Source: Fodinibius roseus
Lineage (GTDB): Bacteria > Bacteroidota > Rhodothermia > Balneolales > Balneolaceae
Direction: 5' to 3'
Length of the DNA stretch: 64,000 nucleotides
NCBI RefSeq assembly: GCF_900129315.1
Contig: NZ_FQUS01000006.1
Location: 124,001 to 188,000 of the forward strand
Shown here: one piece after another, positions 6,505 through 57,440 of the stretch
How positions within the stretch are numbered: position 1 is the first letter of the stretch
How the letters are laid out: each line of letters starts with the position of its first letter
Translations under genes and position numbers: made by a program
The notes under the pieces: model-generated
Database searches by the model: none
What the model was told of the DNA's origin: nothing
The model's input: only the letters and a program-made list of their open reading frames with translations

Positions 6505-6645
6505 GAGAACTTTTTGAACCGTTCTTTAGCCCAATATCGGCGTTATCGCTCGGTTGAAATCCTCACATATAGACTATTTGCTGCGACTCCAATCTCCCCG
6601 GGGCCTTGATCCCGTACAAAATTCTCGGTCTTTCAAAGTCCTCTT
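6505..6645 (+). repeat. R1 element copy A (about 141 bases)
   Basis: The ends read GAGAACTTTTTGAACCG and CGGTCTTTCAAAGTCCTCT and form an imperfect terminal inverted repeat. It begins six bases after the subtilase stop. It belongs to the same sub-family as copies B and F, sharing CCCAAT, a GGTTGAAA-type inner arm and CTTGA before the right end. An imperfect inner pairing joins 6552-6561 with 6585-6594. The bases up to 6815, just before the next gene, hold an eight-C run and AT-rich sequence but no other gene. Confidence 0.75.
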
Positions 6646-11638: not shown

Positions 11639-11771
11639 ATACTTCGAATGTAGCCGGTCAGCTGCGTTGAAGATAAAAATAGCGTGCCAGACGCAGCGGA
11701 GTCCCTTTCTGCCGCTTTTTTTCCGTCGCCTTGCAGAAGTACAGATTGCCTGGTGAGGAAATCCGGGCTAA
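11639..11771 (-). repeat. R2 element copy 1 (about 133 bases)
   Basis: Reverse-complemented, this stretch aligns along its whole length with 28219-28350, with most positions identical. It starts TTAGCCCGGAT, contains GTACTTCTGCAAGGCGACGG, and ends with a long CGCTATTTTTATCTTCAACG stretch and TTCGAAGTAT. Inside, GAAGG/GGAAAAATAGC-type and GCTATTTTTATCTTC-type arms can pair around a smaller GC-rich hairpin. It is non-coding and lies just downstream of the propeller gene. Confidence 0.65.
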
Positions 11772-20021: not shown

Positions 20022-20163
20022 AGAGGCCTTTGAAAAACCAGAAATTTTGTTCAAGGTCAAGGCCAGAGGGAGGTTGGAATCGCAGCATATTGCCCATATG
20101 TGAGAATTTCAACCGACCGATAACACCGACATTGGGGAAAAGACCGGTTTTGCAAAGCCCTCT
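20022..20163 (-). repeat. R1 element copy B (about 142 bases, inverse orientation)
   Basis: The ends AGAGGCCTTTGAAAAACCAG and GGTTTTGCAAAGCCCTCT form the terminal inverted repeat. The inner arms GGTTGGAA (20072-20079) and TTTCAACC (20107-20114) pair with one G-T wobble around 27 bases. It is close in sequence to copy A. It ends 35 bases before the M20 peptidase start, so it may lie in that gene's leader. The remainder of the 389-base spacer shows a weak GCCACG/CGTGGC hairpin near 19830-19857 and nothing else. Confidence 0.85.
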
Positions 20164-23193: not shown

Positions 23194-23480
23194 AAAGCCA
23201 TTTTTTTGTTCAACAGTTTAAATTGAGTACCTAATTTAGAAAAATGTTACCGAATAGCAAACCACATCAGTGAATTTTACATACAGCTATAGGTATTGGT
23301 TATCGGTTAATAGTAATTTGGGTGCGGATTCGTCAGTCCTGGCTTTACCCTCATCATCTACACTTCCCGGCCCTATTACCTTTAATTATTGCTTTTGTTC
23401 ACGACTTGTATTCCCAGTCGTCCACAAGAGATGATCAATACCAAAAAACACCTGAACGGAAGGATACCAGTAACTAAAAG

Positions 23481-23620
23481 AAAGCTTTAAAAACCCAGTT
23501 TTTTTCAATACCAATCCCTGAGTGATTTTAACACCACAGTATATAGTAGACTACAGGTGAGGGTGTTGAAATAGCGGAAATATAAAGGGTGGGCAACACA
23601 ACGGTTTTGCAAAGGTCTCT
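23481..23620 (-). repeat. R1 element copy C (about 140 bases, inverse orientation)
   Basis: The left end AAAGCTTTAAAAACCCAG and right end CGGTTTTGCAAAGGTCTCT are inverse. The inner arms TTTTAACACC (23526-23535) and GGTGTTGAAA (23562-23571) pair with one wobble around 26 bases. Its last two bases overlap the stop codon of the TolC-like gene (TAG, 23619-23621 on the minus strand). Bases 23194-23480 hold nothing recognisable apart from a small ACGACT/AGTCGT hairpin near 23400. Confidence 0.85.
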
Positions 23621-28218: not shown

Positions 28219-28350
28219 TTAGCCCGGATTTTTTACCAAGAAATTTGTACTTCAGCAAGGCGAAGGAAAAATAGCAGCGGAAAGGTACTCCGCTGCGTCC
28301 GGCACGCTATTTTTATCTTCAACGCCGCTGACCGGCAACCTTCGCAGTAT
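28219..28350 (+). repeat. R2 element copy 2 (about 132 bases)
   Basis: It aligns with the reverse complement of 11639-11771. It begins TTAGCCCGGATT, continues GTACTTCAGCAAGGCGAAGG and ends CGCTATTTTTATCTTCAACG, then TTCGCAGTAT. GAAGGAAAAATAGC and GCTATTTTTATCTTC are near-complementary arms, and the internal GCAGCGGA-AAGGTAC-TCCGCTGC forms a perfect eight-base hairpin. It lies upstream of the adaptor gene. Bases 27929-28218 are AT-rich leader sequence with no gene I can support. Confidence 0.65.
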
Positions 28351-28440
28351 GTCACACGCTGTTATAATTTTTTGGCTTCAAAAATTGGTAGAAAGTTATC
28401 TGTATCATTTGGTTACCACAAAGTACCAACATCTTTGAGG

Positions 28441-28583
28441 AAGGCTCCGAAAAACCAGGAATTTTAGTCAATATCAACCCCTGAGCGAATTCAAAACGGC
28501 AGCATATAATGTATGTCTATGTGAGGTTGTTGAATGAGCGAACATGCAGAGATTAGCTAAAAGGACGGTTTTGCAAAGGGTTC
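28441..28583 (-). repeat. R1 element copy D (about 143 bases, inverse orientation)
   Basis: Ends AAGGCTCCGAAAAACCAGG and ACGGTTTTGCAAAGGGTTCC. The inner arms ATTCAA (28489-28494) and TTGAAT (28530-28535) pair perfectly, with possible extension across a one-base bulge. It belongs to the C/G/H sub-family (CTGAGCGAATTC next to the inner arm). It lies downstream of panD. Confidence 0.8.
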
Positions 28584-30012: not shown

Positions 30013-31830
30013 TTATACGGCCCGCCCCGGATCGAAGTCCTCCAGCAGTTGCTTTACGCGATTCAGGAACGCACCGCCGTGGGCGCCGTCAATAATGCGA
30101 TGATCATAACTCATAGAAAGATACATCATATGCCGGATGGCAATAACATCCCCCTCCTCCGTCTCCCGGACCACGGGACGCTTTTCAATGGTCCCGGTCC
30201 CGATGATCGCTACCTGGGGCTGGTTGATGATCGGCGTTCCCATCAGGTTGCCCACACTGCCGTAGTTCGTCAGCGTGATGGTGCCGCCTACCAGGTCGTC
30301 CGGACTCAAGTCTTTATTCCGGGCCTTCACGGCAAGGTCATAGACCGCATTGGCCAGACCGACCAGGTTCTTCTCCTGGGCATGTTTTATGACCGGTACA
30401 ATCAAGCCTCCTTTGCCCCCTTCACCCAGCGCAACAGCCAGACCGAAGTTGATATCCTTCTTCAGCAGAATTTGATCATTCTCGCTGTCTACCGAACTGT
30501 TAATCAGCGGAAATTCGCGTATCGCCTGGATGATTTTTTCAATAAAGAGCGGCGTGTAGGTCAGTTTTACCCCGGCGCGCTCCTTAAACTCTGCTTTGTG
30601 TTCTTCGCGCCAGCGGACCAGCTTCGTCACATCCACTTCCGAGAACGTGGTTACGTGAGCGGAGGTCTGCTTCGACCGGATCATATGCCTGGCAATGGTT
30701 TTGCGCATACGATCCATCTTGATCGTTTCAACATTTTGTGAGGGACGCTGTATATCCAGCTCGCCCGCCGAAATAGAACGTTGTTGTCCCTCTACAGGCG
30801 CCTGTTTCTGCCGGGCTTCAGTCTGGACCGGTTCCTTGTCACCTGCTTTTTCCGGCTCTTCGACCTCACCCGACTTCCGTTTTTCAAGGTAGTTCATGAT
30901 ATCCTCCTTGGAAACCCGTCCCCCTTGTCCCGATCCTTCGATCATCTCAAGTTCTTCCTGCGAAACACCTTCCTCTTTCGCTATAGAGCGTACCAGCGGG
31001 GAGTAGAAGCGCCCGTCGCTTCCGATACGCTGGGGCTCTGTTCCTTCCGGGGGCGCCTCATCTGCAGTACCCTCCTTTGCGGAAGCGGATGCCTGCGGAG
31101 CCGCTTCTTTCTCATCCGTCGTTTCCTTCTCCGAACCGGCTGCCGCAGCGGCCTTTCCGGTGGCAATGACAGCGATCGTTTGTCCCACTTCAATGGTGTC
31201 GCCTTCTTCAGCTAAAATTTCAACAAGTGTTCCGGCCTGGGGCGAAGGGACTTCCGTATCCACCTTGTCGGTCGCTATTTCGAGGAGGGCCTCATCTTCT
31301 TCCACGGGGTCCCCGACCTTTTTAGTCCACTCTATCACCGTTCCTTCCATCACGGATTCCCCCATCTGGGGCATCTGGACTTCAACCCGCTCGCCTTCTT
31401 CACCGGCCGTATCTTCTTTTTCACCTTCCTGCTGCTCTGCGCCCTCGCTTTCCTCCTCCTCAGCTTCCGGGGAAGAGTCTTCCACAGGCTCATCCTTATC
31501 CTCTTCTTCCGTCTCTTCGGCTTCCTGCTCTGCCCCTTCCTTATTCTCTTCCGCTCCATCGTCAGCAACAGCTGCCTCAGCCGCCTCGGCATCCGTCTCG
31601 ATGACTGCAATTACCTGGCCCACTTCAATCGTCTCATCCTCTTCGGCTAAAATCTCAACGAGGATGCCGGCCTGGGGTGAAGGGACTTCCGTATCCACCT
31701 TGTCGGTCGCTATCTCGAGGAGCGTCTCATCTTCTTCCACGGAGTCCCCGACCTTTTTAGTCCACTCTATCACCGTTCCTTCCATCACGGATTCCCCCAT
31801 CTGGGGCATTTCTACTTCCACTCGGGCCAT
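30013..31830 (-). CDS. 2-oxo acid dehydrogenase E2 (dihydrolipoamide acyltransferase), two lipoyl domains
   Basis: This 605-residue protein has two lipoyl domains, each with MGESVMEGTVIEWTKKVGD and the lipoylation motif EIATDKVDTEVPSPQAG (Lys44 and Lys189). An acid-rich linker joins them. A small E3-binding domain follows (FYSPLVRSIAKEEGVSQEEL, then GQGGRVSKEDIMNYL). The C-terminal acyltransferase domain ends with the catalytic YDHRIIDGAHGG. It moves acyl groups to CoA in a pyruvate, 2-oxoglutarate or branched-chain complex; MPQMGESV favours a SucB- or BkdB-like role, but the substrate cannot be fixed. E1 and E3 genes are not adjacent. The two lipoyl coding segments are nearly identical at DNA level (about 31299-31376 and 31734-31811). 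Confidence 0.93.
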   Translation of the reverse strand: MARVEVEMPQMGESVMEGTVIEWTKKVGDSVEEDETLLEIATDKVDTEVPSPQAGILVEILAEEDETIEVGQVIAVIETDAEAAEAAVADDGAEENKEGAEQEAEETEEEDKDEPVEDSSPEAEEEESEGAEQQEGEKEDTAGEEGERVEVQMPQMGESVMEGTVIEWTKKVGDPVEEDEALLEIATDKVDTEVPSPQAGTLVEILAEEGDTIEVGQTIAVIATGKAAAAAGSEKETTDEKEAAPQASASAKEGTADEAPPEGTEPQRIGSDGRFYSPLVRSIAKEEGVSQEELEMIEGSGQGGRVSKEDIMNYLEKRKSGEVEEPEKAGDKEPVQTEARQKQAPVEGQQRSISAGELDIQRPSQNVETIKMDRMRKTIARHMIRSKQTSAHVTTFSEVDVTKLVRWREEHKAEFKERAGVKLTYTPLFIEKIIQAIREFPLINSSVDSENDQILLKKDINFGLAVALGEGGKGGLIVPVIKHAQEKNLVGLANAVYDLAVKARNKDLSPDDLVGGTITLTNYGSVGNLMGTPIINQPQVAIIGTGTIEKRPVVRETEEGDVIAIRHMMYLSMSYDHRIIDGAHGGAFLNRVKQLLEDFDPGRAV

Positions 31831-43444: not shown

Positions 43445-43522
43445 ACCTTTTAAAAAAGCAGGGATATTGTTCACCAACATAGTCTGAGCGATTGGGCAAA
43501 ACAACGGTTTTGCAAAGGTTCC
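43445..43522 (-). repeat. R1 element copy E, internally deleted (about 78 bases)
   Basis: The left part ACCTTTTAAAAAAGCAGGGA to CTGAGCGATT matches the first 50 bases of copy D. The sequence then jumps to the right end GCAAAACAACGGTTTTGCAAAGG. About 60 middle bases, including the inner arms, are missing. It shows that the family can shrink. It lies downstream of the K+ channel gene and 35 bases past the DUF3124 stop. Confidence 0.7.
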
Positions 43523-46621: not shown

Positions 46622-46768
46622 GAATCCTATGCAAAACCGTCTTTTTTGCTAATTTTGGCGTTACCGGTCGGTCAAATGCTCGCATACGGACTCATATGCT
46701 GCAAATGCACCCTCCCTCTCTGGGTTCCTTGACCCTGAACAAAATTCCCGATTCTACAAGGGCACCTT
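46622..46768 (+). repeat. R1 element copy F (about 147 bases)
   Basis: The left end AATCCTATGCAAAACCG and right end CCCGATTCTACAAGGGCACC are more worn than others. The middle (GGCGTTACCGGTCGGT, CTCATATGCTGC) clearly matches copies A and B. Inner pairing is not obvious in this copy. It lies between the CPA2 antiporter and the SDR gene. The rest of that 577-base spacer (46304-46880) shows no gene. Confidence 0.7.
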
Positions 46769-51247: not shown

Positions 51248-51922
51248 ATGGCCCTATTTCGAGTAGATCCGGATCATCCGTTTAGCGGTCCACACCAAAA
51301 CCAGTCAACCCTCACCCGCGGTCCCGCCGCGGAGGAGGCTGCCGTCGGCATGATCCTCATTCACGGACGGGGCGCATCAGCGGAAAGCATGTTGGCCCTG
51401 GCGGAAGAATTTGACCGGCCTGACATCCACTACCGGGCTCTCCGGGCCCGGCGGCATACCTGGTATCCCCGGTCTTTTTTATCCCCTATACCAATGAATC
51501 AGCCGGGTATTTCGAGCGGACTGCAGGCCATCTACGACCAGGTCCATGATCTCGGTGAAAACGGCATCTCAACCGATCATACGGTCCTGCTGGGCTTTTC
51601 GCAGGGCGCCTGCCTGGCAACGGAGTTTGCCGCGCGGCATCCGCAGCGGTATGGCGGAGTCGTGGGACTCAGCGGGGGACTGATCGGCGATGAGATAGAT
51701 CCGGGGAATTACAGCGGATCGCTGCAGCAGACGCCGGTCTTTCTGGGCTGCAGCGACCGGGATGCCCACATCCCCCGGGAGCGGGTCGACATTACGGCAC
51801 AGGTTTTCCGGCAGCTGGGAGCAGGCGTCACCAAGAAGATCTACAAGGGCATGGGACATAACGTCAACCAGGATGAGATAGATCATATCAACCGGCTGCT
51901 GTCGGATATTACGGGCATCTAA
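51248..51922 (+). CDS. mhqD: MhqD-like alpha/beta hydrolase (phospholipase/carboxylesterase family)
   Basis: This 224-residue protein has the serine-hydrolase fold without a signal peptide: MILIHGRGASAESML is the oxyanion strand, GFSQGACLATE holds the nucleophile serine, GCSDRDAHIPRERV the acid, and GMGHNVNQDEI the histidine. It resembles Bacillus MhqD, which acts with ring-cleaving dioxygenases in methylhydroquinone resistance. It is the last gene of the cluster, and an R1 repeat lies about 130 bases beyond its stop. Confidence 0.8.
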   Translation: MALFRVDPDHPFSGPHQNQSTLTRGPAAEEAAVGMILIHGRGASAESMLALAEEFDRPDIHYRALRARRHTWYPRSFLSPIPMNQPGISSGLQAIYDQVHDLGENGISTDHTVLLGFSQGACLATEFAARHPQRYGGVVGLSGGLIGDEIDPGNYSGSLQQTPVFLGCSDRDAHIPRERVDITAQVFRQLGAGVTKKIYKGMGHNVNQDEIDHINRLLSDITGI

Positions 51923-52052
51923 CGCACCAATGACGCTCAACCGGTGATCTTACACACGACCCGCGGGGATTTTAACAGCAGGGCCGTCTATAAACCATTG
52001 CTATTCCCCGTTTTATGATCATACATCAGAGGGGATTTTCAAAACAGTTTTA

Positions 52053-52193
52053 AGAAGCCTTTGCAAAACCGTTCTGTTGGCCAATCTCTTTATTTTCGCG
52101 CATTCAACATCCTCACACAGGCTTTATTTGGGATGGGCTTGAATGCGGTCAGGGGTTGATTTTACCTAAAAACCCTTGTTTTCAAAGGTTTTC
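52053..52193 (+). repeat. R1 element copy G (about 141 bases)
   Basis: The ends AGAAGCCTTTGCAAAACCG and CTTGTTTTCAAAGGTTTTCT are imperfect inverse repeats. The inner arms CGCATTCAA (52099-52107) and TTGAATGCG (52139-52147) are perfectly complementary around 31 bases. It belongs to the C/D/H sub-family. It lies between the MhqD-like and amidohydrolase genes; the remainder of this 535-base spacer shows no gene. Confidence 0.85.
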
Positions 52194-52457
52194 TTTATGT
52201 AGGAAGTACAAGGAGAACGTCTCCTGAAGGCCGACAATAGTCATTTTATTAAATTATTTGCCTTCATTCCGTTAATTGATGATTATTAAGAAAGCGTTAC
52301 GCAACCTCCCGCACGGTTGGTGTTACCGTCGGTGGGTAGGAACTTGTGCATCCCCTGCTCCGGGCAGGTAGGCTGGGATGACAAAACCGTCTACACTTGA
52401 ATATAGTATAATGGGATGAGTGTCTCTGATATTCTAATCAATAAAACAATTGATATC

Positions 52458-57299: not shown

Positions 57300-57440
57300 A
57301 GAGGCCTTTGTAAATCGATCTATTGACCAGTTTCTGTATTTTCGAGAATTCAAAATACTCACAAATCTCTTATATGCCGTGGTTTCGAATTCGCTCAGGC
57401 TTTGATCTTGATCTAAATTCCTGGTTTTGCCAAGGCCTCT
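57300..57440 (+). repeat. R1 element copy H (141 bases, best-preserved ends)
   Basis: AGAGGCCTT (57300-57308) and AAGGCCTCT (57432-57440) are a perfect terminal inverted repeat. The inner arms GAATTCAAAA (57346-57355) and TTTCGAATTC (57383-57392) pair in nine of ten positions around 27 bases. It is flanked by T-rich sequence on the left and ATTACTATTA on the right. It sits just upstream of ispE. The remaining bases to 57611 hold GC-rich sequence with no gene. Confidence 0.9.

Follow-up and report, generated by a model that had tools for sequence, protein, structure and literature searches.

The repeat R1 of Fodinibius roseus is an element of a known kind, an IS5-type MITE, and the unexpected part is the core of its hairpin, which is common to other bacterial groups. 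R1 is probably a small mobile DNA hairpin of the Balneolales that is moved by IS5-type transposases. We give a probability of roughly 0.8 to the reading that it is an IS5-type MITE with a hairpin core, that an IS5-family transposase mobilises it in trans, and that the fold matters in the source elements. A preliminary description of this DNA had noted that the inner arms of R1 change between copies while staying complementary, and had read this as selection for a fold, either in a structured RNA or for mobilisation. The observation was confirmed and the interpretation is partly supported; the IS5-type ends, the 5-bp target duplications and the core in common with the hairpins of other groups come in addition to it.

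Copies and distribution of R1

Profile search and covariance model together found eight R1 copies in the window, the whole 64-kb stretch of DNA that was analysed (Table 1). The focal copy, G, was matched by nhmmer at 52054-52189 (E 1.6e-30) and by the covariance model with 92.4 bits, and lies between an ORF ending at 51922 and an ORF starting at 52416. All five arm pairs quoted earlier (copies G, H, C, B and D) were present and occupy matching positions of the element.

Table 1. Repeats and their parts in the window, and one related remnant elsewhere in the same genome
Feature	Position	Strand	Remarks
R1 copy	6505-6643	+	subfamily B (GGTTGAA type); left end degenerate; nhmmer and covariance model
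Second repeat pair	11639-11754 and 28235-28350	+ and -	116 nt, 88%; GCGTTGAAGATAAAAATAGC...GCTATTTTTCCTTCGCCTTGC
R1 copy B	20022-20162	-	subfamily B; 138.8 bits, top model score in the window
Copy B arms	20072-20079/20107-20114		GGTTGAAA/TTCCAACC, read on the - strand
R1 copy C	23479-23619	-	third subfamily (ATTTCAA type); exact 5-bp duplication TTTTA
Copy C inner arms	23526-23535/23562-23571
R1 copy D	28440-28583	-	subfamily A (CATTCAA type)
Copy D inner arms	28489-28494/28530-28535		ATTCAA/TTGAAT
Direct repeat	31166-31389 and 31601-31824		224 nt, 88% identical; in a predicted 605-aa ORF on the - strand
R1 copy	43445-43522	-	internal deletion; 41.2 bits
R1 copy	46622-46762	+	subfamily B, diverged; 52.5 bits
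Copy G left flank	52049-52053		TTTAA, putative 5-bp target duplication; offset from the family-wide test
R1 copy G (focal)	52054-52193	+	about 140 bp, intergenic; ends read from the sequence
Copy G left terminal inverted repeat	52054-52071	+	GAAGCCTTTGCAAAACCG, IS5 type
Copy G 5' inner arm	52099-52107	+	CGCATTCAA
Copy G 3' inner arm	52139-52147	+	TTGAATGCG
Copy G right terminal inverted repeat region	52173-52193	+	end is CAAAGGTTTTC
Copy G right flank	52194-52198		TTTAT, partner of TTTAA, 4/5 match; offset from the family-wide test
R1 copy H	57301-57440	+	subfamily A; 94 bits
Copy H arms	57346-57355/57383-57392	+	GAATTCAAAA/TTTCGAATTC
IS5-family remnant (own genome)	L234 1298-2163 = contig C42 ~234.07-234.94 kb		frameshifted; R1-like ends GGGGCTTTGCAGAACC...CAAAGCCCCC

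Over the whole genome the covariance model gave at least 150 matches, blastn 40 and the pattern of the R1 left end 167. The copy statistics below come from about 1.04 Mb of own-genome DNA (with overlaps), an R1-enriched sample in which profile searches found 136 copies, 119 of them full length. R1 was detected in 37 of 129 genomes and in 19 of 39 genera of the order Balneolales, as assigned from named records, and its length stays near 137-140 bp across genera. Three identical copies occupy different sites in genome G096. The viral contigs and plasmids searched held no R1, and a search of Rfam returned no match for it. Between genes of the same direction, as judged from crude longest-ORF calls, 35 copies lie against and 15 along the direction of the genes.

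The second repeat pair of the window has a hairpin between GCGTTG and CGCCTTG which resembles the sX9-like core described below, with quite different arms; the pair may belong to the hairpin family of that core as a separate branch.

Ends, target duplications and candidate transposases

That the element is mobile is borne out by its flanks and ends. At a single fixed offset, 24 of 134 copies are flanked by an exact 5-bp duplication of the composition TWWWA, where 1.0 would be expected from exchanged flanks. The ends are GARRNCTTTGCAAAACC...CAAAGNYYTC, with the consensus GARRNCTTTG/CAAAGNYYTC. Terminal inverted repeats and target site duplications are hallmarks of a MITE, as are the short length of 137-140 bp, the lack of a transposase gene and the many copies. 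R1 is placed with the IS5 family by elements of about 1.3 kb in the same order, which encode an intact IS5-family transposase (PF01609 plus DUF772, with NF033581 above its cut-off) and have the ends of R1, down to a common asymmetry of C or T on the left and A on the right. The element in G098, with the ends AGAAGGCTTTGTAAAACCC and AGAAGGCTTTGAAAAACCC, has 17-19 bp in common with R1, and those in G043, G078 and G004 have similar ends; three IS elements in G004 and G072 are bordered by clean 5-bp duplications (TAATA, TTAAA and TTTTA). In G043 we observed two near-identical IS5-family copies (L255 and L262); TATTA stands to the left of one copy and to the right of its counterpart, which points to an inversion of the DNA between them.

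The own genome yielded the frameshifted remnant of Table 1 but no intact IS5-type partner, and when about 1 Mb of DNA from this genome and its relatives was searched for an autonomous partner as paired ends at most 5 kb apart, there was none. G096, with its identical R1 copies, has no DDE_Tnp_1 gene, and no partner was seen there by end-pattern search. Among the sampled genomes the IS was present in 6 of 37 with R1 and 9 of 92 without, hence there is no clear association. ISL3 transposases, also sought as partners, occurred in G042 only. A locus in G058 (L045), where a left end is followed by a 96-aa ORF, was considered as an IS or gene cassette; it has no matching right end and is probably a truncated R1 copy. 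We also considered R1 as an integron attC, and rejected this as no attC core sites were visible by eye and target duplications are present.

From these comparisons we propose that an IS5-family transposase acting in trans on the R1 ends would move R1 as DNA, and that the fold would matter while an element is a source. Pairing may help to join both ends of so short an element, or hairpin-templated repair may re-match the arms of active copies. The missing intact partner and the lack of a clear association between IS and R1 count against this explanation. Further, the interior is conserved across genera beyond what a MITE needs, hence an added function of the core is possible.

Fold and covariation of the inner arms

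The body of R1 forms one long imperfect hairpin. In an alignment of 129 copies, the antidiagonal i+j=140 (141 for the outer pairs) had the top mean covariation of 81 antidiagonals (z 5.1), and the top two APC-corrected G scores of 8911 column pairs were inner-arm pairs on this diagonal, 49-91 (AT 54, GC 36, TA 20) and 50-90 (TA 78, GC 32, AT 5). It should be noted that a tree-aware permutation null was used here in place of R-scape, and that it is conservative, as the subfamily splits are deep branches; over all pairs the best one, 49-91, reached only an E of about 0.1, because many changes fall on few deep branches.

The arms do match better than shuffled ones. Their Watson-Crick fraction was.723 within the own copy and.542 when arms were exchanged across copies (0/300), and among 28 subfamily consensus or singleton sequences it was.739 against.558 (0/1000). 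Among 14 representatives, 19 of 38 pairs had changed on both sides; shuffles gave 9.3 such pairs and slid registers 6-9. Across subfamilies and species there are about ten types of complementary arms, with 5' arms including GCGCATTCAA, GGTCGGTTGAA, GCGATTTCAA, GGGATTTTAAAA, GCAACTTTAAAA, GCAAAAATGAAA, GTGGAATCGAAA, GTAAAATTGAAA, GAAAAAATCAAA and GTGAATTAGAA, and largely matching partner arms.

Within the three subfamilies, on the other hand, exchanging the arms had no cost (.717 against.723 own, 39/300), hence individual copies do not keep their inner arms matched. Relative to the subfamily consensus we counted 21 compensated double changes where 19.3 are expected under independence, next to 571 one-sided changes, and the 110 copies showed no inner-arm covariation within subfamilies. 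Since the exchange is costless and compensation is at the level of chance, inserted copies decay and only the lineages that propagate keep the fold. Inner-arm complementarity is thus maintained in the copy-generating lineages (subfamilies and species) and not in the individual inserted copies. The earlier statements that the arms stay complementary, and that the fold is kept rather than the sequence, hold between subfamilies and across genera and fail for the single insertion. The excess of G-T over A-C is slight overall (190 vs 152) and reversed in the inner arms (35 vs 61).

The six outermost terminal pairs also vary between copies and yet match within the copy, and do so inside subfamilies; own against exchanged pairs were 3.53 vs 3.02 (0/1000) and 4.06 vs 3.63 (5/1000) in two of them, and in the third subfamily the matching was not significant. 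One copy of the own genome (L094:818) has a perfect 22-bp stem that arose, relative to its relatives, by clustered changes in both arms.

A hairpin core shared with other bacterial groups

The interior of R1 is a hairpin module with homologues in other bacteria. Its core reads GAAATCCTCACrTA...TAyGCTnCGGTTTC...CCTTG, with the conserved internal-loop motifs GAAATCCTCAC and GCTNCGGTTT between flanking stems of free sequence. In a phylum-wide search, 25 genomes from two genera of one further family, f24, had full-length R1 matches (E down to 3e-10); of the 296 families sampled, no others outside Balneolales had one. In f24 the core is kept, and the outer stem differs by locus and is matched copy by copy; its duplex energy was -23.7 for own arms and -9.7 for exchanged ones, and 15 of 18 stems beat every exchange. 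Conversely, a sequence-only profile of the f24 core was searched against Balneolales DNA. All its matches, 28/28 at E<=1e-3 and 53/53 at E<=0.1, fell within R1 copies and in their orientation, and the reversed control matched nothing at E 0.1. We further observed that the outer stems of f24 copies (L268-L287) are fully complementary and often stand just 3' of apparent stop codons, and that some copies resemble terminator stems of the A-run/T-run kind whose loop holds the core.

Matches of the f24 core extend to DNA of Comamonas and E. coli. The E. coli copy is an unannotated hairpin between qseE and qseG (L288 1440-1610, L290), and at least one core match was present in 5375 of 5426 complete E. 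coli genomes, at a median of two places; no description of its function was found in the literature. The Rfam model of sX9 (RF02228), a Xanthomonas sRNA, overlaps the copies of Comamonas, f24 and E. coli, which score 23-41 bits against it; the homology of the f24-type hairpin to sX9 falls just below the gathering threshold of 44 bits. R1 itself had no match to RF02228 at E 0.1 and is not counted as a member, and the R1 model aligned to the E. coli copy in its apical part only (19 bits); it is therefore f24 that connects R1 with E. coli and sX9. The outer stems of all these homologues differ from those of R1. In E. coli and f24 the homologous hairpins could well function as RNAs.

Why the arms match

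Two explanations of the matching arms survive, selection on the fold of source elements and hairpin-templated correction, and to each we give somewhat less than even odds. Templated correction would need no benefit to the element at all; during replication or repair, a polymerase that switches template in the quasi-palindrome would use one arm to rewrite its partner, a mechanism by which RNA-like stems are documented to arise and persist (PMC8794818). Because template switching in a long quasi-palindrome also matches arms, covariation alone is no proof of selection here. The 22-bp stem of L094:818 and the terminal pairs matched within the copy in two of the three subfamilies speak for such correction, which should however act in every copy, whereas the inner arms have no excess of compensation within subfamilies and many stems keep mismatches at fixed positions. 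Pairing as a trait of propagating lineages and not of inserted copies speaks for selection for mobilisation. Here a cruciform or single-stranded DNA strand would join the ends of the 140-bp element for the transposase, and only elements able to fold would become sources; the length kept across genera and the position of ends and arms on one continuous hairpin diagonal are consistent with this. IS5-family transposition, however, is not known to need single-stranded DNA. A homologous core also exists elsewhere without IS5-type ends, which means that the core was not made for this transposase.

The structured RNA of the preliminary description, if taken as an element with a local function (terminator, mRNA stabiliser or sRNA) whose compensatory changes are selected at each locus, is a different matter. 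Conserved loops with variable stems do resemble a structured RNA, the outer stem of f24 matches within each copy, sX9, a related Rfam family, is an sRNA, and R1 copies between same-direction genes lie more often against than along them. Yet there is no within-subfamily covariation of the inner arms to go with a function per locus, nor a preference for G-T in them, nor an Rfam match of R1, and both strands fold equally, each modestly better than shuffles (z -2.2 for the + strand and -2.1 for the reverse). A locus-by-locus RNA function for R1 is thus unlikely, and as an account of the arms we give it very little weight.

More speculatively, and less likely than not in our judgement, one hairpin module with fixed internal-loop motifs and free stems might span two phyla or more, among them Bacteroidota, with Balneolales, and Pseudomonadota, with E. 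coli and Xanthomonas. It would be set in outer stems specific to each locus and close to genes or, in Balneolales, in IS5-type ends that made a MITE of it; a conserved host factor would recognise the folded strand and the MITE would exploit this.

Comparison with known repeats

ERIC and Correia/NEMIS are short palindromes repeated in intergenic DNA; they show traits of mobile elements and are predicted to have a fold in common. The same is true of bcr1 in the Bacillus cereus group (PMC2267715); these three differ from R1 in ends and host groups and are likened to it by description only, as is BRE of Bordetella and Comamonadaceae, a mostly intergenic repeat of about 90 bp (PMC3110155). The Comamonadaceae, hosts of BRE, are also where we saw an sX9-like copy. 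Ends of the R1 kind (GAGACCTTTGCA...) are found in the IS5-family MITEs BrickBuilt and MITEPgRS/464 of Porphyromonas gingivalis and in the IS5-family elements ISPg1 and ISNme1, whose published ends are GAGACCATTGCA and GAGACCTTTGCAAAA (PMC4596501). The P. gingivalis MITEs are, like R1, intergenic and non-coding with ends in common with IS5-family elements, but they have internal tandem repeats and irregular duplications (PMC4596501), where R1 has a conserved hairpin core, regular 5-bp duplications and an order-wide spread. The sX9 family and its relatives in Comamonas and at E. coli qseE-qseG are homologous to R1, via the f24 copies, in the apical stem-loop and the 3' part; they lack IS5-type ends, and the matches to the sX9 model lie below its gathering score.

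Significance

Covariation in a bacterial repeat can arise solely in the lineages that propagate, with no function of the single copies behind it, and this is a trap for covariation tests on repeats. A concrete pair of transposase and donor is now at hand for testing the role of an internal hairpin in the transposition of very short elements. What is new is the homology of the hairpin core, from R1 to f24 and from f24 to E. coli, Comamonas and, just below threshold, Xanthomonas sX9, by which a MITE family spread over the order Balneolales is linked to a hairpin which almost every E. coli genome carries, as do other bacteria.
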